From NCBI GenBank assembly GCA_017544745.1, contig JAFYDO010000172.1, positions 1 to 31,978 on the forward strand: DNA of 31,978 bases, given 5' to 3'. Positions 5,532 through 31,027 of this stretch are shown in pieces; within the stretch, counting starts at the first letter, position 1, and the number at the start of each line of letters is the position of its first letter. This DNA comes from Treponema sp. GTDB lineage: Bacteria; Spirochaetota; Spirochaetia; Treponematales; Treponemataceae. Made by a program: the position numbers and the translations under genes. Below the pieces are notes generated by a model. It saw only the letters and a list, made by a program, of their open reading frames with translations, made no database searches and was not told where the DNA came from.

Positions 5532-6209
5532 ATGGCAGGAAACATATTAACTCAGGGAGTATCTCTTTATAATCAAAAAGCTTATACAAACGCTTTGACT
5601 TTCTTTTTGTCGCTGCCTGCAGATTGCGGGGCAGATAAAAACGAAATCGCTTATTACCTTGGTCTATGTTATACAAAGCTGGAACGCTATGATGATGCGC
5701 TTTTGTATCTTGAGCAGGTAGTTACTTCGGGAACCCATATTGAACGTACCCTGCAGTGCCGCTTTTTACTTGCAGTTATATATGCACTTTCGGGACGCCG
5801 CCGCCTTGCAGATTTTGAATTGAACAAGCTTTTGGAAACCGGCTATATGATGCCTTCGGTATATGCAGCAATTGCTTTTGTTGCCTGGGAACAGCACGAT
5901 ACCGAAAAATGTCTTTCTTACTACGAAAAATCACTGGAAGAAAATCCTTCAAACCTTACTTCGCTAAACGGGCTTGGTTATGTACTTGCCTGCGAGGATA
6001 AGGATCTTACAAGGGCACTTTCTTTATGTAAACAGGCAGTAAATAATGCTCCGGATTCTGCAGCATGCCTGGATTCTCTTGGATGGGTATATTACAAGCT
6101 TGGATTATACGATGATTCCAGAAAATATCTTGAACAGGCAGAACTGCTTGACCGCGAAAACGAGATTATTCTGGAGCATATTAAGATTTTGAATAAGGCA
6201 GGTCGCTGA
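5532..6209 (+). CDS. Cytoplasmic TPR-repeat protein
   Basis: A 225-residue protein made almost entirely of tetratricopeptide repeats, helical pairs that usually mediate protein-protein contacts. Clear repeats include EIAYYLGLCYTKLERYDDAL, KCLSYYEKSLEENPSNLTSL with NGLGYVLA, and ACLDSLGWVYYKLGLYDDS. There is no signal peptide or membrane segment, so it is probably cytoplasmic. It sits 23 bases after surE with a GGTGGG ribosome site, and its stop shares a base with the next start (TGATG at 6207-6211). That implies coupled translation with the secreted TPR/NHL protein, with which it may act. No specific function can be assigned. Confidence 0.85.
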   Translation: MAGNILTQGVSLYNQKAYTNALTFFLSLPADCGADKNEIAYYLGLCYTKLERYDDALLYLEQVVTSGTHIERTLQCRFLLAVIYALSGRRRLADFELNKLLETGYMMPSVYAAIAFVAWEQHDTEKCLSYYEKSLEENPSNLTSLNGLGYVLACEDKDLTRALSLCKQAVNNAPDSAACLDSLGWVYYKLGLYDDSRKYLEQAELLDRENEIILEHIKILNKAGR

Positions 6210-8275
6210 TGAAAAAGTCTTTCTGTTGTTTTGTAGTTTTATCTGTTTTATTGTGCGGCCTTTTTGCACAGACAACAACCTCCAATGCAGGGCTTTATGT
6301 AGCAGAAGAACGGATACGAACCGGAGAAGAAGGCTTTGCAGCCGAAGAATTCCGCAGGGGAGTTCAGGCTTTTTACAAGGGAGCCTATAACGATGCAATA
6401 GTTCAGTTTGAAAAAGCCCTGGGCTATATGCCAAACGATAATCTTATTCTTGAATGGCTTGGTAAATCCTATTACAAGGCAGGTATGGAAGGTACCGCAC
6501 TTTCTTACTGGCAGACAGCTTTGGATAACGGCTACGGCGGACTTTTACTTGAAAATAAAATTGAAGTTGTAAAGGACAGACGTGTAACCGGAGATTCAGA
6601 AGATAAGCTTATGAGACTTTCGGAGTCTGGCAGTTTTGAAGGTACAGTAAACGGCGTAATGATTTTTTCGGGGCCTGTAAGTGTTCTGCCAAATTATGAT
6701 GGAAGCTTTTGGGTAACTGCCTATGCTTCTAATGAACTGTTAAGGATTTCTCTTAACGGAAAGGTTTTGGACCGTGTAACAGGACCTCTTGTAGGCTTTG
6801 ACAGACCACTCGATATAATAAGACTTTTGGATGGAAACCTGCTTGTAAGTGAGAGTGCAGGAGACAGACTTGCAGTTCTTAATGAAAACGGCAAGTTTAT
6901 TAAATACATTGGTTCTAAGGGACGCAATGTTGGAAATATTGTAGGACCTCAGTATCTGGCCCAGGATTCAATGGGACGCATTTATGTTACCGACTTTGGA
7001 AACAGACGCGTAGATGTATTTGATGCAGAAGGAAACGGACTTTATTATTTTGGTCAGAAGAGCGGAAGCTTTAAGGGCTTAAAATGTCCTACAGGAATTG
7101 CTGTTGTAGGTGACAGTGTTTTTGTTGCAGATGAAGATGTCGGTAACATTTATGAATTTGACCGCGCCGGAAACTTTATTCGTGAGCTTGTAGAAAAGGA
7201 TACCTTTAATAAGCCTGAATCGCTTAAGCTTTGGCAGGGCAATCTTATTGTATGTGATAAGAATAAAATTGTTTCTGTTGATATTGAAACAGGTTCCATT
7301 TTTGAATATGCAAACACAGGAAATGCACCTAGCCGTGTAACTTCTGCGGTTCCGGATATAAACAATAACGTAATTGTAACAGACCTTAAGGCTGATGAAA
7401 TATATATTATGTCTAAGGTTCAGGAGCTTGTAGGTGGTCTTTTTGTTCAGATTGAACAGGTTGATGCTTCTAAATTCCCGGAAGTTTATGTAGAAATCAA
7501 AGTAGAAAACCGCCACCGTCAGCCGGTTGCAGGACTTGAGCTTGAAAACTTTTATCTTACAGAAAACAAGAGGGCTGTATCTAACCTGCAGTTTGTTGGA
7601 AGTGCTGCAAACAATACCTACGCAGATATAACCGTAATTATAGACCGTTCAACTGTTATGAAGGGATACGCTTCTGAGGTAGAAACTGCTCTGAAAGAAA
7701 TTGCGGCTTCTATGAACGGAAGGGGAACACTCCGTGTAATTTGTGCAGGTGCAGTTCCAGCAACAGAATATACCGGTGCTGCGGATGGAGTTTCTAACTT
7801 TACAATTGATGCATTAAAAACTCCGTATGCTTCCAATGTTCCTGTAGACCTTGCAATAAGACTTGCTGCAAATGATTTGATTAATGCTGCCAAAAAGCGC
7901 GCAATCATAATGATTTCTGACGGCTCGGTAAATGCTTCTTCATTTGAAAAATATACGCTCTCTGAATTGAGTGCCTACCTTTCAAATAACTCTATTGATT
8001 TTTCTCTTATTCAGGTTTCGCAAAAAGCGCCTGCTGCAGAATATGAATATATAATCAATAATTCTTCGGGTGAATCTTATTATGTATTCCGTCCAGAAGG
8101 ACTTAGTTCAATTGTAAAGGACATTATTGCAATTCCACAGGGAACCTACCAGGTTAAATATGTTTCAGCTTTGCAGAAAAGCTTTGGAGAAAAATATCTT
8201 CCTGTAGAAGCAGAGGTTTATCTTATGAACCGAAGCGGCCGTGATGAAAGCGGTTACTTTGCACCTCTGGACTAA
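6209..8275 (+). CDS. Secreted TPR / NHL-propeller / VWA-like protein
   Basis: A 688-residue exported protein. Residues 1-21 form a signal peptide (MKKSFCCFVVLSVLLCGLFA). Residues about 45-110 are TPR-like (GVQAFYKGAYNDAIVQFEKA). Residues about 150-400 carry repeated NHL/SMP-type propeller units (GPQYLAQDSMGRIYVTDFGN, CPTGIAVVGDSVFVADED). Residues about 470-645 look like a von Willebrand A domain, with ITVIIDRSTVMKGY as the MIDAS region and IIMISDGSVN as its second strand. The third MIDAS Ser/Thr is replaced by Val483 (DRSTV), so metal binding may be weak. It is last in the kinase-surE-TPR run and meets the next gene tail to tail with a 4-bp overlap of stop codons. A periplasmic scaffold or binding role is plausible but unproven. 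Confidence 0.85.
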   Translation: MKKSFCCFVVLSVLLCGLFAQTTTSNAGLYVAEERIRTGEEGFAAEEFRRGVQAFYKGAYNDAIVQFEKALGYMPNDNLILEWLGKSYYKAGMEGTALSYWQTALDNGYGGLLLENKIEVVKDRRVTGDSEDKLMRLSESGSFEGTVNGVMIFSGPVSVLPNYDGSFWVTAYASNELLRISLNGKVLDRVTGPLVGFDRPLDIIRLLDGNLLVSESAGDRLAVLNENGKFIKYIGSKGRNVGNIVGPQYLAQDSMGRIYVTDFGNRRVDVFDAEGNGLYYFGQKSGSFKGLKCPTGIAVVGDSVFVADEDVGNIYEFDRAGNFIRELVEKDTFNKPESLKLWQGNLIVCDKNKIVSVDIETGSIFEYANTGNAPSRVTSAVPDINNNVIVTDLKADEIYIMSKVQELVGGLFVQIEQVDASKFPEVYVEIKVENRHRQPVAGLELENFYLTENKRAVSNLQFVGSAANNTYADITVIIDRSTVMKGYASEVETALKEIAASMNGRGTLRVICAGAVPATEYTGAADGVSNFTIDALKTPYASNVPVDLAIRLAANDLINAAKKRAIIMISDGSVNASSFEKYTLSELSAYLSNNSIDFSLIQVSQKAPAAEYEYIINNSSGESYYVFRPEGLSSIVKDIIAIPQGTYQVKYVSALQKSFGEKYLPVEAEVYLMNRSGRDESGYFAPLD

Positions 8276-11200
8276 AAGTTAATTTTTGCTCCAAGTTTAT
8301 ATTCAAGCGACAGCTTAAAGGTTTTGCCTTTTTCAAAGCCAAACAAAAGTCCGGCTCCACTGGTAATTGAACAGTTGTTTAAAAATTCAAGCGCACTGTC
8401 ATGTGAGTAGCCATAAGTTTGAATATGAGAAGCTTTTGTATTTGTAAGCGAAAAGCTTATTGAATCGTTCATGGTTGCTTTGAGGTCCATTGTTCGCGAC
8501 TGCTTCCATATAGCATTTGTCAGAACAAGTAAAAGACTTTCATCAACACGGCGGTTCCAGCCGGTGCCCAGTTTAATCTTTAAAGCGCTTGTGCTTTCCA
8601 AAGAAAAATCTGTATTTACAGTTACAAAGCTTTGTTCTCCAAGATTAAACAAAAGCTTTGCTGCATCAGAAATTAAATAATAGGTACTATCTGATTTTTT
8701 GTCGCTAAAGCGTACTGTGACATTTGCGGTTTCTGTAAGCTCCAGCTCGCGGCTTATATAGCTGTCGCTAACATTTGCTTTAATCTGGTAAACAAGCTTT
8801 GTGCTGCCGGCGGAAAAACTTTTTTCTGTAGTAAAACCTGCCCCGGCAGAAAGAGGAACAAGAAGGTCATTCAAATTATTGAACAGCTTGCGTCTCCAAC
8901 TAACTTCATAATTAGTTGAAGTAAAGGTAAGGTTAGAACTTCCTCCGGCATTTGAAAAAATAAACGCAAGGTCATCTGTGTAATTTTTTCCAGCGTAAGT
9001 CTGTAACCTTGTGTTTTTATGGTTAAACCAGAAGGTAATTGCATGAGAAGCCTGTGGCAGAGTAAAGGGGAGTGTAAAACTGTATTTGTCATACCACGAA
9101 TAATCTTTTGAATCGGCAGACACTTTGGCGCCGGTAAGCTCATATTCAAAAACGGGAGAAAGCCCTGCTTTTGGAATACCAGCTTTTGCTCCCGCAATAA
9201 AGCTTGTGTTGCGCAGCGCCTGTTTATCTCCACCGGAAAATTGGAGTACAGAGGTTTTATACCATCCGTTAAAATATTCTTTGACCAGTGCAGTGTTTTC
9301 AAACAGTTTTTGGCTTGCGGTAAGAGAAGAATACAAAGATGCAGTATTCTTGTTTATATCAAAATCAATCGAAAGCTTACCCAGGTACTGCTGGTTACTC
9401 ATGCTTTTTAATTCTTTTTGGGCTGAGCTTTGCGCACTTATGCTTACAGAAAAAGGAGTAAAAAGTGGTTTGGTGTCTATCTTTATATAATCGTTTTTAC
9501 GGACAAGAACATTGTCTGCTGTAAATCTGTAGGTTTCGCCAAAATCTAAAATCTTAAAAAGCGGTTCTTGAGTTATAAGGGAATGTCCGGCATTTTTAAG
9601 TCCGTCCATGGTTGTACTTGCGTCTGCAGCCGCCTTAATTCCTGCAAGAGTATAAAAGCCGCTTACGGAAGAATCTATGTAATAAGAAAATTGCCCGGAA
9701 GTAGAAAGTCCCTGCTCGTATTTTGCTTCGATTCCACCGGACTCAAAATTAAACTTTGCCTGTGCAAGATTTTTAGCTTCAAAGCCTGGCTGGGTTTCTT
9801 TATAGCAAAGGTTAGAAGCATAAAGGTGACCGTCTGCCTGGGGAACAATCACAATTTTTTGTGCGGAAGGAATTACAGCCTTATCCAAAATTATGCCGCA
9901 TACCTGTGGGGTGAGCGGAGTTGAATCTATAAAGGCTGCCTTATCCTTTGTGTTTATACTAAGCGTATGCTTTTGTCCGTCGCAGAATGGTTCAAGAACC
10001 TCCAGTGGGAGCTTTATTTCCAGAGCCTTCTGGTCATAAGAGTTTATGAGGCTGTATTCAAGACTTGCAGGTGCTGTAATTGCAAAGTCAAAGCTAATGG
10101 TTTTGTAAGCACTAAAATCTGCCTGTTCAAAATAAGAAAGGCTTGTAATAGTTCTGTCGCTGTCTGTTTGCCAGGTATCTTTAAGTTTCCATTCCAGGTC
10201 TGCTTCATTTTTTTTGTAAAGGTCTGCAGCCGACTGAATGCTTTTGCCATCGGTTATCTGCATTAAAGGAGAAACAAGCCTGTATGGACCTGCGTAGAGA
10301 GTACCGGTAGGACTGTCTGTATCTGGTGTGTAGGATTCTTTTACAATAACGAGCCTTGCATTATGACTGTAGCCAAGCTTTGCGCGTTTAAGTGGTGTAA
10401 GCCGTATTTTTACAGTCTGCCAGACAGGATTATTAAGATCCAGCGCAGTAATTACATTCTGGTCCAAAAGAGAAGTTATTTCCCACACTGGGAGCTCCTG
10501 GTTCTGGTCTGGCTCAGACGCTCCAAGCAAAAGGTAAACACTTAAGTTCTGGCCTGCAAGCTCCTTTGACGGTAAAAACGCAAATTCTACCTGGTCTGCC
10601 TTATAAAGCGAGTCTGCCTTGGATAGATTTATATCTACTGAAGCCCAAAGATTTTGCGTGCTGCCATTGTCACCGGCTTTGGAAAAATCATAGCTTAAAG
10701 GAATCTTATAGCCGCTTATTTTTTTATCTTCAAGTCCGTCAAATTTATTTACAGTATAATTATTCTGCTGTTCAAGGTTTGGCATCTGGGGCGACTTAGG
10801 AATAACTTGAGTTTTGCTTCCCGAATTACGGCTTAAATAATTTGTCTGGTCTTGAGTGTTTGAATAAGTATTTGCAACAAAAAGATTTGTAAGATTCTGG
10901 TTTTTATAGGCAGCACTAAGCGCATCGCTGATTACCATAAAATCAGAATTATAAGTAAGGCCTGCAGTAAGCGCAGAAAAAGTTTCTTTAGGTGCGTCTG
11001 CTGTTGCATAGTCGTCCTTTTGAAAATACGGATATATTCCCGTGTAACTAAGATCAAGAACAAGGGACGGAGTAAAGTTATACATAAAGCCAAGTGCTGC
11101 AGTAAAGGCTCCGGTTGCAAGATTGTTGCTTTCTTCGCAGTAAGTGATGTAGATTTTGTCCAGTTCACTAACGCTTGATTCAAGAGTAACAAAACCGGTT

Positions 11201-12609
11201 CCTTTATCATATTTTGCAGGAACAGATATTCCGTTTTTATAAACCCGCACGGAACCTGCCTGAACAAATTTTCCAATATCATATTCTTTGACCGAAGTTG
11301 TAGTTACAGTTGCAAATGCAAGCGGTGCAGTACTTCCTCTGTAAAGATAAATGTTTGGATAAGTGTCTGCAAACGGAAAGCGTGTACTTGCAAGAGAATA
11401 ATCATTATCAGACAGAGAGCTCTCATCTTTATTAGTTTTATAAACTCCTGCAGCCTTGCCGTCAAAAAATCCATCAAGTACAAGCGGTGAAGCATACCAG
11501 GAGGCTGCCTGCTGGTTTGTTGCAGTATCAATTATCTGGTATTCGGCAGTGCCCGTTGTCTTGCTTTGATAAAGGTTTGCACAGGCGTATGGAGAAAAGT
11601 TTACAGGGCTTTGAATTATAATACCGGTAGAACCATTAACCACAGTTGTAAGTTTGTCTGCTTCTAGAGAAGAAAACTGTGTAAGATCAACCTTAAAATA
11701 CTGCATGAGTTCTCCGGCAAATGTTGACGAATCTGTGTAAGAACCCGTTGCCTGCAAAAGCTGCTCACAGCCCGCTTGTGAAGAAAACGAAATTACAATA
11801 TAAGGGCAGGCTTCTGATGTACCAGTATTAAAAACCTGTGCCTGAGTTGAAAGCACAAGAAGATTTTTCTGCGGAATTATTAAATACTCACTTTCCAAAA
11901 GTTTTTCATAGTTTACACCGTTTGAACCAGAATATTTACCGTTCTTACTCTGGACATAAACTGCATTTATAAGGTTTATTGCATCCGAAGGAATGTAAAA
12001 CATATAGGAACGCATGTAATCATCAAGCGGTGTCTGGTTCATGTCCACACGGTTTTTTCCGTAAAAGGTCATGCTTTTAGTCTGAACCATGTCATAGCGT
12101 AAAAGAATGTCGGCCTTCCATTTTTGTGTGTCCGGCTGTTCAAAATGGAACATAAGTCCCGGTGCCTGGTTGTCTCCTCCGCCGGTTCCATAGCCCAAAA
12201 GTGAAGAAGAATATTCAGCAGGAAAGGTTATGCCTCTGTTGGAAAATATAAATTCTTTAAGATAGCCGTCTCCCTTATAGGCAAAGGTGTAGGTGTTGTG
12301 CTTAAACTCATCAAGGAATTCAAGAGAAAAATAAAGCTGCGGCGTTATCTGAATAAATGCACTAAGATCAATTTCCTGCTTAAACACCGGAAGCGGCGCA
12401 CTAAAACCAAAAGGATTTGAATAGCCAAAGGTTGTGTTTAAGCTGCCGGTAAGCTCTCCCTTCCACCAGCCTGTAATAGTCCAGGTGCTTTCTTCCTGTT
12501 TTGGTTGGGTTTCCTGTGCCGTACTTTTTAGCGGTGCGGACAAATAAAAAAGTATAGCCGCTGCAAAAAAGAGCAGAGCCTTTACTCCTTCATTAAGCTT
12601 TTGGAGCAT
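8272..12609 (-). CDS. Predicted giant outer-membrane beta-barrel protein, internal start inside the dinB frame
   Basis: Starting at the internal ATG at 12609 gives 1445 residues with a well-formed signal peptide: a Lys-containing n-region, the hydrophobic core ALLFFAAAILFYLSA and a likely cleavage after STA. The mature start (TWTITGWWKGELTGSLNTTF) and many alternating aromatic/polar strands suggest a beta-barrel or beta-sandwich protein. The chain ends EYKLGAKINF, with the terminal Phe expected for BAM-inserted proteins. The middle (full-frame residues about 1040-1330) resembles carbohydrate-binding-type beta-sandwiches. SVRVYKNGISVPAKYDKGTG resembles a module in very large surface proteins such as SprA, but this is a weak impression. 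No Shine-Dalgarno precedes this ATG; AAGGAG lies slightly downstream, at about 12590. Function is unknown. Confidence 0.65.
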   Translation of the reverse strand: MLQKLNEGVKALLFFAAAILFYLSAPLKSTAQETQPKQEESTWTITGWWKGELTGSLNTTFGYSNPFGFSAPLPVFKQEIDLSAFIQITPQLYFSLEFLDEFKHNTYTFAYKGDGYLKEFIFSNRGITFPAEYSSSLLGYGTGGGDNQAPGLMFHFEQPDTQKWKADILLRYDMVQTKSMTFYGKNRVDMNQTPLDDYMRSYMFYIPSDAINLINAVYVQSKNGKYSGSNGVNYEKLLESEYLIIPQKNLLVLSTQAQVFNTGTSEACPYIVISFSSQAGCEQLLQATGSYTDSSTFAGELMQYFKVDLTQFSSLEADKLTTVVNGSTGIIIQSPVNFSPYACANLYQSKTTGTAEYQIIDTATNQQAASWYASPLVLDGFFDGKAAGVYKTNKDESSLSDNDYSLASTRFPFADTYPNIYLYRGSTAPLAFATVTTTSVKEYDIGKFVQAGSVRVYKNGISVPAKYDKGTGFVTLESSVSELDKIYITYCEESNNLATGAFTAALGFMYNFTPSLVLDLSYTGIYPYFQKDDYATADAPKETFSALTAGLTYNSDFMVISDALSAAYKNQNLTNLFVANTYSNTQDQTNYLSRNSGSKTQVIPKSPQMPNLEQQNNYTVNKFDGLEDKKISGYKIPLSYDFSKAGDNGSTQNLWASVDINLSKADSLYKADQVEFAFLPSKELAGQNLSVYLLLGASEPDQNQELPVWEITSLLDQNVITALDLNNPVWQTVKIRLTPLKRAKLGYSHNARLVIVKESYTPDTDSPTGTLYAGPYRLVSPLMQITDGKSIQSAADLYKKNEADLEWKLKDTWQTDSDRTITSLSYFEQADFSAYKTISFDFAITAPASLEYSLINSYDQKALEIKLPLEVLEPFCDGQKHTLSINTKDKAAFIDSTPLTPQVCGIILDKAVIPSAQKIVIVPQADGHLYASNLCYKETQPGFEAKNLAQAKFNFESGGIEAKYEQGLSTSGQFSYYIDSSVSGFYTLAGIKAAADASTTMDGLKNAGHSLITQEPLFKILDFGETYRFTADNVLVRKNDYIKIDTKPLFTPFSVSISAQSSAQKELKSMSNQQYLGKLSIDFDINKNTASLYSSLTASQKLFENTALVKEYFNGWYKTSVLQFSGGDKQALRNTSFIAGAKAGIPKAGLSPVFEYELTGAKVSADSKDYSWYDKYSFTLPFTLPQASHAITFWFNHKNTRLQTYAGKNYTDDLAFIFSNAGGSSNLTFTSTNYEVSWRRKLFNNLNDLLVPLSAGAGFTTEKSFSAGSTKLVYQIKANVSDSYISRELELTETANVTVRFSDKKSDSTYYLISDAAKLLFNLGEQSFVTVNTDFSLESTSALKIKLGTGWNRRVDESLLLVLTNAIWKQSRTMDLKATMNDSISFSLTNTKASHIQTYGYSHDSALEFLNNCSITSGAGLLFGFEKGKTFKLSLEYKLGAKINF

Positions 12610-13773
12610 GCGGGCTTTGTGTATTTTTATTTCGGGGTGCTTTTTTTCAAGCTTTAAGATTGCTTTTTCGACATTCTGCTTTTTTTCGGAACCGTCATCA
12701 AAAAGACTTTGCTGTGTTGGCTTTTGGGTTGTGTCAATGTTTTCCAGGCCAATACCTATGAGCCTTATTCCGCGGCCCCGTTCGTATTTATGTTCAAAAA
12801 GTTCCTTTGCCCTTGAATAAAGAGAATCTAAGGTAAGCACATAATCCGAATAAGTCTGCTGTATCGAAACTGTAGAAAAATCTTCATAGCGGATTTTTAC
12901 CATCACAGTTTTTGAAAAACCTTTTTCCCTTAAAAGCCTGAACATTACGCAGTGGCAAAGCTCCAGGATTGTAGTTTCTGCAGTATAGGGGTCGGTAACA
13001 TCATAAGGAAAAGTTGTCTCGTTGCTTATTGAATGACTTTTTGTCTTGCGGTCAAAGTCTACGGTTTCTATTCCGCGCACAACCTTGTAAAGAAAGTTCC
13101 CGGTATTGTCACCAAACATAAAGATAAGTGCCTGCAGAGACTTGTCATAAACATCCCGGGTAGTTCGTATTCCCGCTGTATTTAAAGCTTCCAGAGTTTT
13201 GTCACCAATGCCCCAGACCTTTTTGAGCGGGAGGTTTAGCATAAAAGACTCTTCCTGTCCTTCCTGTATACAGTAAAAGCCGTCGGGCTTGTTCATATCC
13301 GAAGCAATCTTGGCCAGATATTTTGTTGGCGCAAGTCCTACAGATACAGTAAGTCCTGTCTGCTCCTTTACCATCTTTTTTATTTTATATGCTGTTTCCT
13401 CTGGCGGACCAAAAAGCTTTTCGGTTCCGGTAAGGTCTATAAAGGCTTCGTCTATACTTATCTGCTGAACATCTGGAGAAAAATCTCGGAAGATATTCAT
13501 TATCTGGTACGAAAGCTCTGCGTAGCGTTTCATTCGCCCGTGAACATATATGCCGTCCGGACAAAGCTGGTATGCCTTAGCAATTGGCATAGCACTGTGA
13601 ACACCAAACTTACGCGCTTCATAGCTTGCAGTAGAAACAACGCTTCTTTTTTCACCAGGTTTTCCACCGACTATAACGGGCTTGCCTCTGTACTGAGGAT
13701 TATCCAGTTGTTCAACAGAAGCAAAAAAAGCGTCCAGGTCTACATGAAGGTAATAATGCTTTATCTCGTTCAT
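8272..13773 (-). CDS. dinB: DNA polymerase IV (DinB) frame continuing without a stop into a giant outer-membrane-type protein
   Basis: One uninterrupted frame of 1833 codons. Residues 1-385 are a complete Y-family translesion polymerase. They contain HVDLDAFFASVEQ (Asp12 metal ligand, Phe17 in the steric-gate area), SIDEAFIDLTGTE (Asp108-Glu109), GLAPTKYLAKIASDMNKPDG, a helix-hairpin-helix (VWGIGDKTLEALNTAGI) and a beta-clamp motif QQSLF at 354-358. DinB proteins normally end shortly after the clamp motif. Here the frame passes KIHKAR into MLQKLNEGVKALLFFAAAIL, which looks like a secretion signal, and then about 1420 residues of beta-rich envelope protein. The start ATG overlaps the upstream stop as ATGA. 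A single fused polypeptide would be biologically strange. Either the second protein starts internally at 12609, or a stop or frameshift has been lost. Confidence 0.8.
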   Translation of the reverse strand: MNEIKHYYLHVDLDAFFASVEQLDNPQYRGKPVIVGGKPGEKRSVVSTASYEARKFGVHSAMPIAKAYQLCPDGIYVHGRMKRYAELSYQIMNIFRDFSPDVQQISIDEAFIDLTGTEKLFGPPEETAYKIKKMVKEQTGLTVSVGLAPTKYLAKIASDMNKPDGFYCIQEGQEESFMLNLPLKKVWGIGDKTLEALNTAGIRTTRDVYDKSLQALIFMFGDNTGNFLYKVVRGIETVDFDRKTKSHSISNETTFPYDVTDPYTAETTILELCHCVMFRLLREKGFSKTVMVKIRYEDFSTVSIQQTYSDYVLTLDSLYSRAKELFEHKYERGRGIRLIGIGLENIDTTQKPTQQSLFDDGSEKKQNVEKAILKLEKKHPEIKIHKARMLQKLNEGVKALLFFAAAILFYLSAPLKSTAQETQPKQEESTWTITGWWKGELTGSLNTTFGYSNPFGFSAPLPVFKQEIDLSAFIQITPQLYFSLEFLDEFKHNTYTFAYKGDGYLKEFIFSNRGITFPAEYSSSLLGYGTGGGDNQAPGLMFHFEQPDTQKWKADILLRYDMVQTKSMTFYGKNRVDMNQTPLDDYMRSYMFYIPSDAINLINAVYVQSKNGKYSGSNGVNYEKLLESEYLIIPQKNLLVLSTQAQVFNTGTSEACPYIVISFSSQAGCEQLLQATGSYTDSSTFAGELMQYFKVDLTQFSSLEADKLTTVVNGSTGIIIQSPVNFSPYACANLYQSKTTGTAEYQIIDTATNQQAASWYASPLVLDGFFDGKAAGVYKTNKDESSLSDNDYSLASTRFPFADTYPNIYLYRGSTAPLAFATVTTTSVKEYDIGKFVQAGSVRVYKNGISVPAKYDKGTGFVTLESSVSELDKIYITYCEESNNLATGAFTAALGFMYNFTPSLVLDLSYTGIYPYFQKDDYATADAPKETFSALTAGLTYNSDFMVISDALSAAYKNQNLTNLFVANTYSNTQDQTNYLSRNSGSKTQVIPKSPQMPNLEQQNNYTVNKFDGLEDKKISGYKIPLSYDFSKAGDNGSTQNLWASVDINLSKADSLYKADQVEFAFLPSKELAGQNLSVYLLLGASEPDQNQELPVWEITSLLDQNVITALDLNNPVWQTVKIRLTPLKRAKLGYSHNARLVIVKESYTPDTDSPTGTLYAGPYRLVSPLMQITDGKSIQSAADLYKKNEADLEWKLKDTWQTDSDRTITSLSYFEQADFSAYKTISFDFAITAPASLEYSLINSYDQKALEIKLPLEVLEPFCDGQKHTLSINTKDKAAFIDSTPLTPQVCGIILDKAVIPSAQKIVIVPQADGHLYASNLCYKETQPGFEAKNLAQAKFNFESGGIEAKYEQGLSTSGQFSYYIDSSVSGFYTLAGIKAAADASTTMDGLKNAGHSLITQEPLFKILDFGETYRFTADNVLVRKNDYIKIDTKPLFTPFSVSISAQSSAQKELKSMSNQQYLGKLSIDFDINKNTASLYSSLTASQKLFENTALVKEYFNGWYKTSVLQFSGGDKQALRNTSFIAGAKAGIPKAGLSPVFEYELTGAKVSADSKDYSWYDKYSFTLPFTLPQASHAITFWFNHKNTRLQTYAGKNYTDDLAFIFSNAGGSSNLTFTSTNYEVSWRRKLFNNLNDLLVPLSAGAGFTTEKSFSAGSTKLVYQIKANVSDSYISRELELTETANVTVRFSDKKSDSTYYLISDAAKLLFNLGEQSFVTVNTDFSLESTSALKIKLGTGWNRRVDESLLLVLTNAIWKQSRTMDLKATMNDSISFSLTNTKASHIQTYGYSHDSALEFLNNCSITSGAGLLFGFEKGKTFKLSLEYKLGAKINF

Positions 13774-15713
13774 TGTTTACCTTCAATTTTAAGATTTTTT
13801 GTAAGAGAATAATAGATGTCTTCTTCCTGATCATAAAAAATCTGTTCTACTGTAATTGTCTGGCCCTGGGTATCGGAACCGTAATTAAATTCAAGGTTTT
13901 GAGACGGATACATTGGAAGAGGAAAATCTACTGTATTTTGATTAAGCAGATTGAATTCATTTTCGGAATATAAAACAGGGGTAGTGTTCTGGTCGTCAGA
14001 GGTAATCTGCAGGGAAACATAAACCGGAAGCTGTTGGGACTGAACATTTACAGTTCTGATTGTATCCGAAAAGATTTGCTGGTCCTTGTAGGAAAGATAA
14101 AAATCCTTGCCAGGCAGAGTGTTTTCTGCAGTCAAAAGCTGCATCTGAAGAAAAGCAGACCTGTCTTTTTTTTGCGAATAAAAAATACGGTTCAAAAGTA
14201 AAAGGATAATAAAAATTCCAAGATAGGTTGCGCCAATCAAAATGGCATAAAACCTCTTTTTTGTATAATACTTTTTAAACGCATTAAACAATCGCAAAAG
14301 CATCTGGTAAACAGGCAGAAGAATAAAGGATAAAAGAAAGGGCTGGGCAATACTGTTGATAAGAAGGTTATGCAGACTTTCTATATCCGAAGTATTAAAA
14401 AGTGAGTTGATGTACGGAACAAAGGGAACAATTAAGAATATAAATAAAATAATGTGAATCCAGTTGCGCCGGAAAATAAGAGAAATAACCGAAACCAGAT
14501 AAATAAACATAAAAATTGGAAAAAGCGAAATATCAAGAAGAGTAAAAATCATAAGGTTTATAAAGGTGTCCAGTACCAAAAGAAAATCAAGCGAGCGGGT
14601 AGTGTACTTTTTGAGCAGCGACAGGTTTAGCATAAAAAACAGCGAAACCAGCAGCATGGAAATCATAATCTGGACAATTATAAAACCAAAAACTGTATAG
14701 GACGCATTTGAACGGGTAAAAAGTTTGTAAAGCCCTTTTCCTGCAAACAGCCCTGCAAGAGTAAGCGTAAAGATAACCGGAATTACATACCAGTTTGCGC
14801 GTATTTCCTGCCAGAATTCTACCTTAAGGTTTTTGTTTATAAAGCTCATGCTAAATGTAAGAAGAATACTTAAAATAAGAAAAACAATCAGAATCTTGAT
14901 GAGCCTTATTTCCGAAAGCCAGATTCTTTTTCCAAAAATACGGAACATAAAGGTGTGCGAATCGTTGCTCTGGTCCATAGAAGATTCATAGGAGTTTATA
15001 AAAGCAAGAATTACATCGCTTGCACGCGTAGTATCCTTAATTCCTGCAGAAATACAGGGAATGTCTGAGTTCAAAAAGGCAAGAAAAGCACGGTCCTCGG
15101 AAAAGGTAAAATCTGCGGTCTGGCTTATAAAGATGAGCGGCAATCCGTCTGTAATTTTTGCACTGCTGTAGGCGTCAAACATATCCTTGAGCATCCACGA
15201 AGGTGAATGTTTTTTATTGCTTCCTGTGATAATCTGATTTTTTCTTGAGGAAAGGTCCATCAAAACTGCGGAATTTGACGTATTTGTGTCCAGAGATTGA
15301 ACAAAAATGTCTGCGCCGTAGATTATGTTTTCCATATACAGGTTGTTTCTGTTTCCATAGCACAAAACAACCGTGGAATTGTATGGGCGGGTACTAAGCT
15401 GGGTTAAAGCAGCGGTTACAATCTCACGGTTTGGCCAGGCGTCTTCCATATAAAAAAATAGGATAAAATTGTGATCTGACACTGTGTCTTTTGGGGAGAA
15501 TCTGACGATAATATTATAAGGCAAAAGATTAGTTCCGCCGGAGACAAGCGGCTGAATCTGAGGATTAAAGCCGTTTTTTTCAATATATTCAAACATAGAA
15601 TCGCATAAATCCTGACCGTTAAGAGATTTATCCTGCGAAAAACATAAAAAAGTGCAGTTTAGAAGTATTGAGAAAAACAAAATCTTTAAAACGGATTTTT
15701 TTAGCTGATTCAT
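13770..15713 (-). CDS. Multi-span membrane protein with an exported N-terminal domain, function unknown
   Basis: A 647-residue protein. Residues 1-26 form a signal peptide (KSVLKILFFSILLNCTFLCF). Residues about 27-265 are a soluble exported domain. About eight membrane helices follow between 271 and 510 (for example IRLIKILIVFLILSILLTF and ILIGATYLGIFIILLLLNRI). A beta-rich C-terminal domain (515-647) is probably periplasmic again. The soluble-domain-plus-helices layout, and stretches such as NREIVTAALTQLSTRPYNST, faintly recall M28-peptidase-like membrane proteins, but no HxD or EE metal ligands are visible, so catalysis is not supported. The stop overlaps the dinB start as ATGA, placing it in the same transcript as the DinB/outer-membrane frame, perhaps as an envelope partner of the latter. 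The ribosome site is weak. Confidence 0.8.
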   Translation of the reverse strand: MNQLKKSVLKILFFSILLNCTFLCFSQDKSLNGQDLCDSMFEYIEKNGFNPQIQPLVSGGTNLLPYNIIVRFSPKDTVSDHNFILFFYMEDAWPNREIVTAALTQLSTRPYNSTVVLCYGNRNNLYMENIIYGADIFVQSLDTNTSNSAVLMDLSSRKNQIITGSNKKHSPSWMLKDMFDAYSSAKITDGLPLIFISQTADFTFSEDRAFLAFLNSDIPCISAGIKDTTRASDVILAFINSYESSMDQSNDSHTFMFRIFGKRIWLSEIRLIKILIVFLILSILLTFSMSFINKNLKVEFWQEIRANWYVIPVIFTLTLAGLFAGKGLYKLFTRSNASYTVFGFIIVQIMISMLLVSLFFMLNLSLLKKYTTRSLDFLLVLDTFINLMIFTLLDISLFPIFMFIYLVSVISLIFRRNWIHIILFIFLIVPFVPYINSLFNTSDIESLHNLLINSIAQPFLLSFILLPVYQMLLRLFNAFKKYYTKKRFYAILIGATYLGIFIILLLLNRIFYSQKKDRSAFLQMQLLTAENTLPGKDFYLSYKDQQIFSDTIRTVNVQSQQLPVYVSLQITSDDQNTTPVLYSENEFNLLNQNTVDFPLPMYPSQNLEFNYGSDTQGQTITVEQIFYDQEEDIYYSLTKNLKIEGKQ

Positions 15714-27409: not shown

Positions 27410-29626
27410 TTAGTTAATAATCAACTTTTCCGGCAATCCATCAAAGTGTACATTATTAACAAAATACTGATATGTTACACTGGTAGAATTATCTTTAATA
27501 AAGACTTCATAAAAATTATCATATTTTAAAGTGCTGTTTGGATAATGTTCAACTAAATTACCTGCATTACTGGTTACTTCTGTTGCCTCAGGATTGTAAG
27601 TAATAGTAAAGCTTTCACTTGATGTTGAGTTTTCAGTAAGTTGTTTGAAATATCGGAAGTAAATATCAATTGTATAATTATCTGGTATAGAGCTTATTCC
27701 AAGTATAGGTGCTGTTGTAAACTGGATTGTGGTGTTTTCCGAATTTAATACGATAGAACCGTCTTCTGTAGTTGCTACTACAGGAGAATTCGTAATAATT
27801 GTTTCACCAACTCCTCCTGTAGCAGTAACAGTGCATGTATTTGAATGCGGGTGATATAGATATTTTTCATTTTTATAATAAAATTGGTTATCCAGAGAGT
27901 AGGTATATTGTTTTCCCTTGTTTACAAAATAATCAATTACAGGTTCTTGCCCCTGTAAATTATTCAAATTGTTAATATGCAGAGTATTTTTATTATCACT
28001 GGAAGTTCGTAATAATGAATCAAAATAAACTATATTATCTGTTTCAGGAAAATAAGGCACAGTAATTTTTATACCGTCACTAATATTTTCTGTCTGTATG
28101 CTGATTTCATTTGAACCACCTTTCGCTTCTACAGCTATATAAGGATTTCTGTCAGAAGTATAATAGATGGTTGTAGAATCATATTTATCTGTATCTACAT
28201 AATATGCATATTCTTTTCCCGGAGTTACATAAGAATCAAGGAATACTATTGAAGTAGAAGCCGGCGGATTTTCATTATTATAATCTTCAAAATTGAATAG
28301 TTTGGTATTTGTTGGTTTCCATTCATTATTGCTATCTTTTACTGCTTCATAAATGTCAATTCGTTTATAATACATGCTTTCATGACTTACTTTAATTTTG
28401 TTTCCCTGTGCAGTTGCTTCAATTTCTACCGCTGGTTTAGCTGGATTATCGGGTAAAACAAGTTTGACTGGCATTCCGCAATTCTTAACATCAAAGATTT
28501 TGCTATAAGAACTACCAGAACTGTTTGGTCGTGCTTCAGAAAATTCTCCTTTTACAAGACCTGCTGAGGCAAGAATAAAAGTTGTATCATACATATGGTC
28601 AAATAATAAGCTATTTGTCTCTGAATTTAGATATTCCTGTGAATGAAGTTCTGGATTTCCGTAAATATTTTCAGATGTATAAAGATATAGTTTTATACTG
28701 TCTTTAAGTTTATAAAGTTTTATTTTATATTGTTCCATTTCTGCACTAATAGAATCTATACGGAAAATGTATTCATAATAGTAATCTGTATTTTCAAAGC
28801 AGGTGCCTTCAACAGAACCATCATTTTCAAATATCAATGTTGCATTTTCATATTTTACAATAGGAGGAATAACCGCTTCATTTGGAGCAATAACAACTGT
28901 CGCACCGCTTTCCACAGCTTCATCTGTAAGTGTAACCTCTGTAGTACCTTCAATACTCTGAATATCAGCCTTACCGTCAATGATAATCTGGGCTGCACTC
29001 TGGTCGCCTTGAGGTGCAGAAACTTCAATCTTTTCTACAGTTCCACCTTTAACGGTAACCTTATCAACATTTTCATTTACAGTGATGGCTTTAATTACAA
29101 TATTTTCTTCCGATTCTATTTTTGTGCCGGCGGCATCTACTACAAGAGCTTCTACTTCAGAAGTTCCTTCCACGGCAACACGGACTGCGTCTTTTTTTAC
29201 TTCTACGCTGGCAACTTTGGAGTTTTTAATGTGGATACTGTTGGAACCACCGCCGTTTACTACAAGCTTAGTAATGTTGCTGCAGCCGGTGAGTGTAACG
29301 TCACCATCGCCAACCTGCTGGTCAATGATGATTATGGCATTGCTTACATTTACTAATTCTGTACCACTGGCTTTTATGGTAAGGCTTTTGCCACCGAGTT
29401 TAAGATTTTTGATAGTGATGGCTTTTGAAACCTGGGCATCCTCTGCAATTTCGGCGCCTTCAAAATCAATTGAAGTTTGTGCCTGGTCAATTTTTTCTGT
29501 CAAAGTCTTTTCCACAGGTGCCTGGTCTGGAATATTGGCAGCTGGCGTTTCAGGTGCTCCCGGACAGCTTGTAAAGAGTAATGCTAAAGAAAGAATGATA
29601 ACGATTTTTGATATAATACTTTTCAT
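27410..29626 (-). CDS. Large lipoprotein with a beta-helix-like N-terminal region and Fn3-like modules
   Basis: A 738-residue predicted lipoprotein. MKSIISKIVIILSLALLFTS leads to Cys21 (lipobox LFTSC). Mature residues about 40-240 are repetitive short beta strands (ITIKNLKLGGKSLTIKASGT, then SIHIKNSKVASVEVKKDAVR), as in right-handed beta-helix surface proteins. The C-terminal half has beta-sandwich units with a recurring phrase (VTPGKEYAYYVDT and VNKGKQYTYSLDN), suggesting Fn3-like repeats. The frame can be extended 40 codons upstream to 29746, but that stretch is translated dispersed repeat (RHCERSEAIH). The ATG at 29626 has an AAGGGGAA ribosome site and makes a proper signal peptide. It is probably surface-exposed; ligand unknown. 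Confidence 0.85.
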   Translation of the reverse strand: MKSIISKIVIILSLALLFTSCPGAPETPAANIPDQAPVEKTLTEKIDQAQTSIDFEGAEIAEDAQVSKAITIKNLKLGGKSLTIKASGTELVNVSNAIIIIDQQVGDGDVTLTGCSNITKLVVNGGGSNSIHIKNSKVASVEVKKDAVRVAVEGTSEVEALVVDAAGTKIESEENIVIKAITVNENVDKVTVKGGTVEKIEVSAPQGDQSAAQIIIDGKADIQSIEGTTEVTLTDEAVESGATVVIAPNEAVIPPIVKYENATLIFENDGSVEGTCFENTDYYYEYIFRIDSISAEMEQYKIKLYKLKDSIKLYLYTSENIYGNPELHSQEYLNSETNSLLFDHMYDTTFILASAGLVKGEFSEARPNSSGSSYSKIFDVKNCGMPVKLVLPDNPAKPAVEIEATAQGNKIKVSHESMYYKRIDIYEAVKDSNNEWKPTNTKLFNFEDYNNENPPASTSIVFLDSYVTPGKEYAYYVDTDKYDSTTIYYTSDRNPYIAVEAKGGSNEISIQTENISDGIKITVPYFPETDNIVYFDSLLRTSSDNKNTLHINNLNNLQGQEPVIDYFVNKGKQYTYSLDNQFYYKNEKYLYHPHSNTCTVTATGGVGETIITNSPVVATTEDGSIVLNSENTTIQFTTAPILGISSIPDNYTIDIYFRYFKQLTENSTSSESFTITYNPEATEVTSNAGNLVEHYPNSTLKYDNFYEVFIKDNSTSVTYQYFVNNVHFDGLPEKLIIN

Positions 29627-29658
29627 AAATTTTCCCCTTGTTTTGATTAGTGGGAATA

Positions 29659-29688
29659 ATATAACATAAAAATGATTTTTTGTGTAAA
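29659..29688 (-). promoter_or_regulatory. Possible promoter of the beta-helix lipoprotein gene
   Basis: On the minus strand TTTACA (29688-29683) is followed after 18 bases by TTATAT (29664-29659). The leader would be about 25 bases and carry the AGGGGA ribosome site. Support is hexamer similarity only. Confidence 0.4.
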
Positions 29689-29703
29689 AAATTTTTTTGA
29701 GGT

Positions 29704-29752
29704 GGATTGCTTCGCTTCGCTCGCAATGACGATGAGGCCCGTACACAATGAC
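29704..29752. repeat. Dispersed repeat of the ATTGCGAGCGAAGCGAAGCAAT type
   Basis: GGATTGCTTCGCTTCGCTCG continues into CAATGAC, then GATGAGGCCCGTACACAATGAC. This repeat is familiar because its translation (HCERSEAIH one way, DCFASLAMT the other) shows up as false protein N-termini in many genomes. Here it extends both flanking frames artificially. It lies between the divergent lipoprotein and hydrolase genes. Confidence 0.85.
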
Positions 29753-29776
29753 AAATCCTACCTTATCCTATATAAT
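29748..29776 (+). promoter_or_regulatory. Candidate promoter predicting a leaderless mRNA for the hydrolase gene
   Basis: ATGACA (29748-29753), 17 bases, then a perfect TATAAT (29771-29776). Only 6 bases separate the -10 element from the ATG at 29783, so transcription should begin at or within a base or two of the start codon. No ribosome site precedes the ATG. The -35 element overlaps the end of the dispersed repeat. Confidence 0.6.
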
Positions 29777-29782
29777 AAAGCC

Positions 29783-31027
29783 ATGAATCTGGAAAATCTT
29801 AAAAATATTCAGCCATTGATTGATGACTATACCTTAAAAAACTACGTGGCCGGAGTAAACGTTCTCCTTTATAAAGACAACAAAGAGCTTGGCTACTGGC
29901 AGTCAGGCTGGGCAGATATAGAAAACGGCAAAAAATATGAACGCAACACAATCTGCCGCATGTATTCAATGAGTAAGACAATCACAGCGGCTGCTGCCTA
30001 TAAACTCATAGAACAGGGCAAGCTGGACCTTGGGCAGGATCTTGCCTTTTACCTGCCATATTTTGCTGACCTTCAGGTATGCGAAACTCCCGGACGCAAG
30101 GGCACACCACGAAAGGCAGCCAGACCAATCCTTATTCAAGACCTTTTGAACATGACCAGCGGCTACACCTACGGAGCCTGGAGTGAGCAGGGAACTCTTT
30201 GCGAACATCTTACCTCTGACCTCATAAACGAACTCAACGAGGACGCCGCAGGTCCAAATAAAATTACAACTCAAGACTTTGCCCGCCGCATTTCTAAAAT
30301 CCCTGTGAGCTTTGAACCAGGCACTGACTATCAGTACGGCTATTCTGCAGATATTCTTGGCGCTGTTATAGAAAAAGTTGCAGGCATGAGATTTGGCGAC
30401 TTTCTTAAAGAAAATATTTTTAACCCGCTTGGCATGAACGATACAGATTTCTATGTACCGGCAGACAAGCAGTCCCGCCTTTCCAACGTTTATCGCTGCA
30501 ACATGAGTTACACTGCCGACGGACAGACACCCTCTGCCACCTTAGAACCATTCACATCCTGTAACCTTGGCATTTCCCATAAAATGGACAGAATGCCGGC
30601 CTTCCAGAGTGGAGGAGCAGGCCTTTGTTCTACAATAGACGACTATGCCCGCTTTGGACTCATGCTTGTAAATGGCGGCCAGCTGGACGGAGCACGCATC
30701 TTAAACCCGGGAACTGTAAGCTTTATGTCAAATGCACAGCTACCAGCCCCCTTGCAGCAAAAGTTTGACCAGAAAATGCCTCATTTAAGCGGCTACACCT
30801 ATTGCAACCTTCTTCGCATAGCAAAAAATCCCGGAGAAAGCAAAGCCCTCACAACCCGCGGCGAATACGGCTGGGACGGATGGCTTGGCCCATACATAGG
30901 TATAGACCCTGCCAACAACCTTGTTTTTTTAATGACCATGCAGCGCTGTGACACCGGCACCATGGACCTTACAAGACTCGTAAAAAACATGATTTATTCG
31001 CTACTTGAAAACCACCCCTTAAAATGA
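29783..31027 (+). CDS. Serine beta-lactamase-fold hydrolase (class C / esterase-like)
   Basis: A 414-residue penicillin-binding-protein-like serine hydrolase. The nucleophile motif SxxK is Ser62-Met-Ser-Lys65 in RMYSMSKTITAAAAYKL. Downstream conserved blocks are PILIQDLLNMTSGYTYG, FEPGTDYQYGYSADILGAVI (the usual YxN is not clear here), FNPLGMNDTDFYVP and FQSGGAGLCSTIDDYARFG. The C-terminal HTG/HxG box is replaced by GWDGWLG, as in many esterase-like members. There is no signal peptide, so it is probably a cytoplasmic esterase, transesterase or peptidase, not a resistance enzyme. The frame can be extended upstream to 29672 through the dispersed repeat, but MNLENLKNIQPLID fits the family start and the promoter position. 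Confidence 0.88.
   Translation: MNLENLKNIQPLIDDYTLKNYVAGVNVLLYKDNKELGYWQSGWADIENGKKYERNTICRMYSMSKTITAAAAYKLIEQGKLDLGQDLAFYLPYFADLQVCETPGRKGTPRKAARPILIQDLLNMTSGYTYGAWSEQGTLCEHLTSDLINELNEDAAGPNKITTQDFARRISKIPVSFEPGTDYQYGYSADILGAVIEKVAGMRFGDFLKENIFNPLGMNDTDFYVPADKQSRLSNVYRCNMSYTADGQTPSATLEPFTSCNLGISHKMDRMPAFQSGGAGLCSTIDDYARFGLMLVNGGQLDGARILNPGTVSFMSNAQLPAPLQQKFDQKMPHLSGYTYCNLLRIAKNPGESKALTTRGEYGWDGWLGPYIGIDPANNLVFLMTMQRCDTGTMDLTRLVKNMIYSLLENHPLK

Follow-up and report, generated by a model that had tools for sequence, protein, structure and literature searches.

A conserved treponeme gene joining DNA polymerase IV to a large outer-membrane-type protein, probably as a polyprotein with a mid-chain signal peptide

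In Treponema sp. contig JAFYDO010000172.1, the frame of DNA polymerase IV (DinB) continues without a stop through a signal-peptide-like segment into a big envelope-type second part, labelled here the OMP. The window is the whole 31,978-nt stretch analysed, and the fused gene is one feature within it (Table 1). The join is a genuine gene fusion, most likely of single origin. Judged from sequence features, it is highly probable that its product is a polyprotein with a mid-chain signal peptide, which is the best reading of the gene. What the sequences show is conservation of the frame, its placement in the tree, loss of internal start signals, retention of the signal peptide and constraint on both parts; a single precursor chain, its cleavage, the destination of the OMP and a tethered DinB are inferred from these.

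Table 1. Coordinates in the window of the fused gene, its parts and the upstream gene X
Feature	Position	Strand	Basis
Fused gene: DinB – signal peptide – OMP	8272..13773	−	ATG start, 1833 aa, stop-free; homologues
DinB part, residues 1–388	12610..13773	−	Pfam PF00817, PF11799; NF002677; motif conservation
Internal signal-peptide-like segment, residues 389–420	12514..12609	−	Conserved hydrophobic core and A|Q boundary; cut predicted near A419/Q420
Predicted exported part, large outer-membrane-type protein, ~1413 aa	8275..12513	−	C-terminal Phe, no known family
X, 647 aa, conserved partner upstream of dinB	13770..15713	−	N-terminal signal-like segment and hydrophobic stretches (by eye)

A sequence-only reading of the stretch had described 1833 sense codons in one frame from 13773 to 8272 of the reverse strand. 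This is correct: the frame opens with ATG and holds zero stops. The positions it gave also hold, with QQSLF at residues 354–358, Met389 at 12609 and a signal-peptide-like stretch from about residue 389 to 420. Between 12300 and 12900, promoters and terminators were predicted about as often as in shuffled sequence, and no RNA families were found within the window. The end of the fused gene overlaps by 4 nt (window 8272–8275) that of a convergent ORF with NHL/TPR matches (6209–8275, forward strand). Elsewhere in the window (27410–31027), two mechanically called ORFs, a 778-aa reverse-strand frame without a Pfam family and a forward-strand protein of the beta-lactamase family (PF00144), share 75 nt at their 5′ ends.

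The Y-family polymerase domains occupy residues 11–357 (Pfam PF00817, 4.6e-53; PF11799, 1.7e-21). The NCBIfam DNA polymerase IV model NF002677 scores 343.6 bits against a cut-off of 256. The window's DinB contains the catalytic motifs DLDAFFA and SIDEA, the clamp motif QQSLF and a conserved tail ending in KAR. A charged 30-residue stretch, ending with this KAR, separates QQSLF from the signal-peptide-like segment. Both catalytic motifs (Asp; Asp-Glu) are present in 112/112 fused DinBs longer than 350 aa, a count that leaves out two short ones. Across an alignment of 121 proteins that includes the window's, K364, E369, I372, P380, K386 and A387 of the tail never vary, and 120 have R388. The protein thus shares domains, catalytic motifs, clamp motif and equivalog score with DNA polymerase IV of the Y family, from which it differs in that its C-terminus runs on into an exported-type protein. 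A free soluble DinB with its own C-terminus is not encoded, as no stop precedes the OMP in the window.

DinB, tail and OMP all look strongly constrained. The dN/dS values are 0.073 for DinB, 0.039 for the tail, 0.296 for the signal peptide and 0.094 for the start of the OMP; these are rough, coming from 41 close, non-independent pairs with synonymous sites near saturation. When 43 fused genomes were scanned with PF00817, the fusion was the best match in each. It was the only Y-family polymerase found in 14 of them (genome completeness not given). The other 29 hold further, weaker Y-family matches, by which DinB activity might be covered there.

The OMP part ends in Phe in 115 of the 121 aligned homologues, in Tyr in five and in Ala in one. 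This aromatic C-terminal residue, together with the signal peptide, is consistent with an outer-membrane beta-barrel. Assignment to a known family was dropped, since the window's OMP has no match in Pfam or NCBIfam at E up to 1. A profile of 11 OMP members likewise gave no match to PDB chains at E up to 1. DUF4183 was matched in two of 11 members scanned (best 0.00035), with weaker matches in single members. A length-restricted search for standalone OMPs returned 14 matches, among them P0123, an OMP without DinB. Another protein, P0175 of 2616 aa, carries its DinB C-terminally and seemed to be unrelated.

The segment between the two parts has the features of an internal signal peptide lying in one frame, with the positive side predicted to be inside. 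The 15 residues before the hydrophobic core carry a net positive charge in 114/114 fused loci (mean +4.1), and the net charge after the core averages −0.8. A core of 12 residues with a mean hydropathy of at least 1.6 lies within 60 residues in 113 of the 114 loci. The one exception is L146, with its core approximately 80 residues on. Control stretches of DinB contained such a core in 9/678 cases. At the predicted boundary, A419 is kept in 94 of the 121 aligned proteins, and Q420 in 80, with Glu in its place in 22. The predicted mature OMP would therefore start with Gln or Glu in 102/121 (P0001–P0121), which is reminiscent of the Gln rule reportedly described for Bacteroidetes in PMC5837995. 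The sequence-only reading held that a single product makes little sense. This was too strong, as a mid-chain signal peptide preceded by positive charge gives a consistent topology, in which DinB would lie inside and the OMP outside.

A whole-protein search scored 7986 candidates sharing the most words, of roughly 1000–3200 aa, and yielded 366 homologues. A DinB Pfam domain was found in all of the 120 homologues listed, in P0071 the C-terminal one only. Among the matches listed, whose identity goes down to 35%, alignments mostly extend along the entire query, and about 30 have a best local alignment covering 24–54%. Strain JC4 is named among these homologues. A protein search with the G248 fusion placed Treponema maltophilum ATCC 51939 (2022 aa) among the fused and also matched Treponema sp. 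OMZ 840. Several fusions carry the plain name ‘DNA polymerase IV’ in database records. No published description of a treponeme DinB–OMP fusion was found in the literature searched, which lacked most subscription journals.

Within the genus-level group of G010, junction profile A1 was run against 200 genomes, one per species. It matched in 184, and the DinB–OMP junction is uninterrupted in 104. This figure is the 104 spanning matches less G200 (locus L143, frameshifted) plus G144 (locus L146, whose matches are split yet which is fused). The frameshift of L143 lies inside the DinB tail, both parts being otherwise present. Some fused loci are cut by contig ends further on. The recurrence of the same uninterrupted join in 104/200 genomes places the junction beyond chance. 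An OMP-alone scan covered 80 of the 95 genomes without a spanning match, finding none in 70 and an OMP in ten; the family scan found OMP pieces in three genomes outside those 80 (G053, G166 and G185). Across 274 genomes, the family scan added 33 in which the OMP was matched. Twenty of these were fetched, of which ten are fused and ten separate.

In these last ten the genes of the X–dinB–OMP operon are all separate. Within the genus, dinB and the OMP are likewise separate at two loci, L015 (T. bryantii SIG99) and L147. The dinB stop overlaps the OMP start by 4 nt in all 12 separate loci (11 ATGA, one GTGA), an overlap that is not in the window. An example is G238, in which dinB and a 1139-aa OMP are separate with the 4-nt overlap. 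Separate-gene OMPs start 8 to 11 codons after KAR and, by eye, have an ordinary N-terminal signal peptide. The separation in L147 is backed by the standalone OMP clusters P0166–P0168. For L015 the evidence is a single contig, with the overlap inside a homopolymer run, so an assembly slip there is possible. According to PMC10666635, 4-nt overlaps mark termination-reinitiation coupling. The coupled pairs described there share their architecture with dinB/OMP in the 12 separate-gene loci and differ from the window, where the boundary is now one continuous frame and nothing terminates to reinitiate.

The stop of X overlaps the dinB start by 4 nt in the window (ATGA, 13773–13770). X has no Pfam family. 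It is of membrane type and stands upstream of dinB or the OMP in most loci looked at. It also precedes dinB in 15 OMP-less genomes looked at (L018, L019, L022 and 12/20). In 23 OMP-less loci, the distance from KAR to the dinB stop is 2 to 17 codons, with a single case of 40. In L149, L150 and L151 there is no dinB between X and the OMP: the end of X overlaps the start of the OMP itself (TTGA, ATGA and GTGA, respectively), and dinB lies elsewhere in the genome.

A tree was built by a quick method from 148 DinB rows: 113 fused, 12 separate and 23 without an OMP, the last chosen by the author. L112, L136, L143 and other fragments were left out. The root, with SH-aLRT 99, sets the ten outgroup rows apart from all 113 fused rows, the 23 OMP-less ones and the remaining two separate ones. 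With the OMP-less rows removed, the fused or separate label changes three times; rooted in this way, the changes amount to a single fusion and two re-splits (L015 and L147). The OMP-less label changes nine times, seven of these forced by strongly supported branches. The tree of these sequences therefore fits one fusion, two re-splits and several OMP losses, and the outgroups suggest that a separate X–dinB–OMP operon was the ancestral state. Relatives with clearly separate genes had been named beforehand as telling against the join; they exist, as outgroups and as two lineages within the fused clade. Separation twice inside that clade indicates that the fusion is not indispensable.

Three origins had been offered for the missing boundary: a lost stop, a base missing from the assembly and an internal start at 12609. 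The lost stop is the one that stands, though the loss is ancient and has become fixed in evolution. That the join reflects an error of sequencing or assembly, or read-through of a pseudogene, has a negligible probability. Single assemblies elsewhere do break, by the frameshift in G200 and inside the OMP in G109 (a TGA) and G149 (two frames), and nothing of the kind speaks for error in the window. Against it, the same frame is found in 104 genomes of the one group and ten outside, some of the fused junctions lying in contigs of 2.2 to 2.9 Mb (G021, G022, G027 and G056), and dN/dS is low outside the signal peptide; as a general explanation, assembly error is refuted by the shared junction. It is very doubtful, too, that two proteins come from one frame, with an internal start at or close to 12609 for the OMP and some other way of ending DinB. 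Met occupies residue 389 in the window and in 59 of 121 homologues, and the OMP has its own start in separate-gene loci. However, with Thr (40), Leu (17), Ile (4) or Phe (1) there in the other homologues, the Met put forward as a start lacks conservation, and the Thr codons of 25 loci are mixed (ACA 8, ACC 7, ACG 5, ACT 5), which makes a fixed unusual start unlikely. ATG at codon 389 is kept in 12/114 fused loci, the window and close relatives among them. Start codons were counted in the 114 loci over a region that opens 20 codons ahead of the KAR end and closes at the hydrophobic core; the anchor was some 16 codons too early in L173 and L174, and the core of L146 was misplaced. ATG, GTG and TTG are all absent near the signal peptide in 58 loci, and ATG in 93. 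A start codon occurs at the junction in 56/114 loci compared with 874/1358 control windows inside dinB, the junction being the lower. As had been noted, no Shine-Dalgarno stands at 12609 (duplex energy −0.1 kcal/mol). A candidate start with a duplex of −5 kcal/mol or below is found in two of the 114 loci, neither of them ATG, whereas separate OMPs have −5.0 to −10.8 in 11/12, L015 having −3.0. The internal start is rejected on this loss of start codon and Shine-Dalgarno in fused loci. Even with such a start, ribosomes beginning at dinB would meet no stop and full-length chains would be made.

Two further alternatives concern the fate of the chain. It is unlikely, though not fully exclusive of the polyprotein reading, that a programmed +1 frameshift immediately downstream of KAR yields free DinB in addition to the full-length chain. 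The +1-frame ATG AAG GAG TAA noted earlier is present at 12593–12582. These twelve bases are identical in none of six relatives compared, and L035 has a similar short +1 reading. In favour of frameshifting, the first +1 stop comes a median of 4 codons after the junction compared with 11 at control positions, and a stop straddles codons 390/391 in 48/114 loci against 30.9 ± 4.3 expected from synonymous resampling, whose maximum in 2000 resamplings was 48. Moreover, 36 of 42 junction Leu-Leu pairs beginning CTT continue with TTA or TTG. But these codons already follow in 60% of such pairs in background ORFs, so that codon-pair habits explain part of the signal; the loci are related and the counts not independent; CTT TTA also occurs in 3/12 separate-gene loci; and a fixed slippery motif is absent. 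Programmed frameshifting was set aside because its signal, although present, is inseparable from codon-pair background and kinship. CTT followed by TTA or TTG is common at window 12601–12609 and in the aligned loci. It is also improbable that the signal segment stays uncleaved, making DinB, transmembrane segment and OMP one inner-membrane-anchored protein. Topology alone permits this; the conserved A|Q/E boundary, the retained C-terminal Phe typical of outer-membrane proteins and the ordinary N-terminal signal peptide seen by eye in separate-gene relatives argue against it.

The preferred reading, a polyprotein arising from a fusion, would begin with an X–dinB–OMP operon in which dinB and the OMP were joined by the 4-nt stop/start overlap. 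A frame-changing event at the overlap would have abolished the stop of dinB and brought the OMP into the dinB frame. The OMP's own start codon and Shine-Dalgarno have since decayed, so that in roughly half of the fused loci analysed the OMP can be made only as a continuation of DinB. Any stop newly arising between the two parts would then shut off the OMP, and this can account for the rarity of reversals. In the single precursor chain expected, DinB would be made first and fold in the cytosol, and the mid-chain signal peptide would then send the remaining ~1400 residues to Sec. Signal peptidase I would cut at the A|Q-like site and free the OMP for the outer membrane. DinB would be left with a C-terminal hydrophobic tail and held, at least briefly, in the inner membrane.

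Signal peptidase I and site-2 protease families are present in 8/8 genomes checked, one of them a separate-gene genome, which makes a remnant-clearing step freeing DinB possible. It is tentatively suggested that the error-prone polymerase DinB is membrane-tethered, born as the N-terminal part of an exported precursor, with signal peptidase and site-2 protease either freeing it or leaving it anchored, and with translesion polymerase output tied one-to-one to envelope protein export. The fusion would then be kept by selection, or by an evolutionary ratchet, being hard to reverse once the internal start has been lost.

The Bradyrhizobium japonicum FbcH protein is a cytochrome b/c1 polyprotein cut by signal peptidase. 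It resembles the treponeme fusion in being one gene with an internal signal peptide and two mature products made via signal peptidase, these last being predicted for the fusion. It differs in that both its products belong to one complex, whereas the fusion joins a cytosolic DNA polymerase to a surface-type protein.

A DNA polymerase and an exported-type surface protein are thus held as one conserved frame in over 100 species, counter to the usual expectation that fusions join related domains of one compartment. Separate, fused, re-split and OMP-less loci together form a before-and-after series of how operons with 4-nt overlaps fuse and get locked in. Records of ~1,900 aa named ‘DNA polymerase IV’ hide an undescribed surface-protein family, and for the treponemes that carry the fusion, the prediction is a translesion polymerase that would be held at the membrane.
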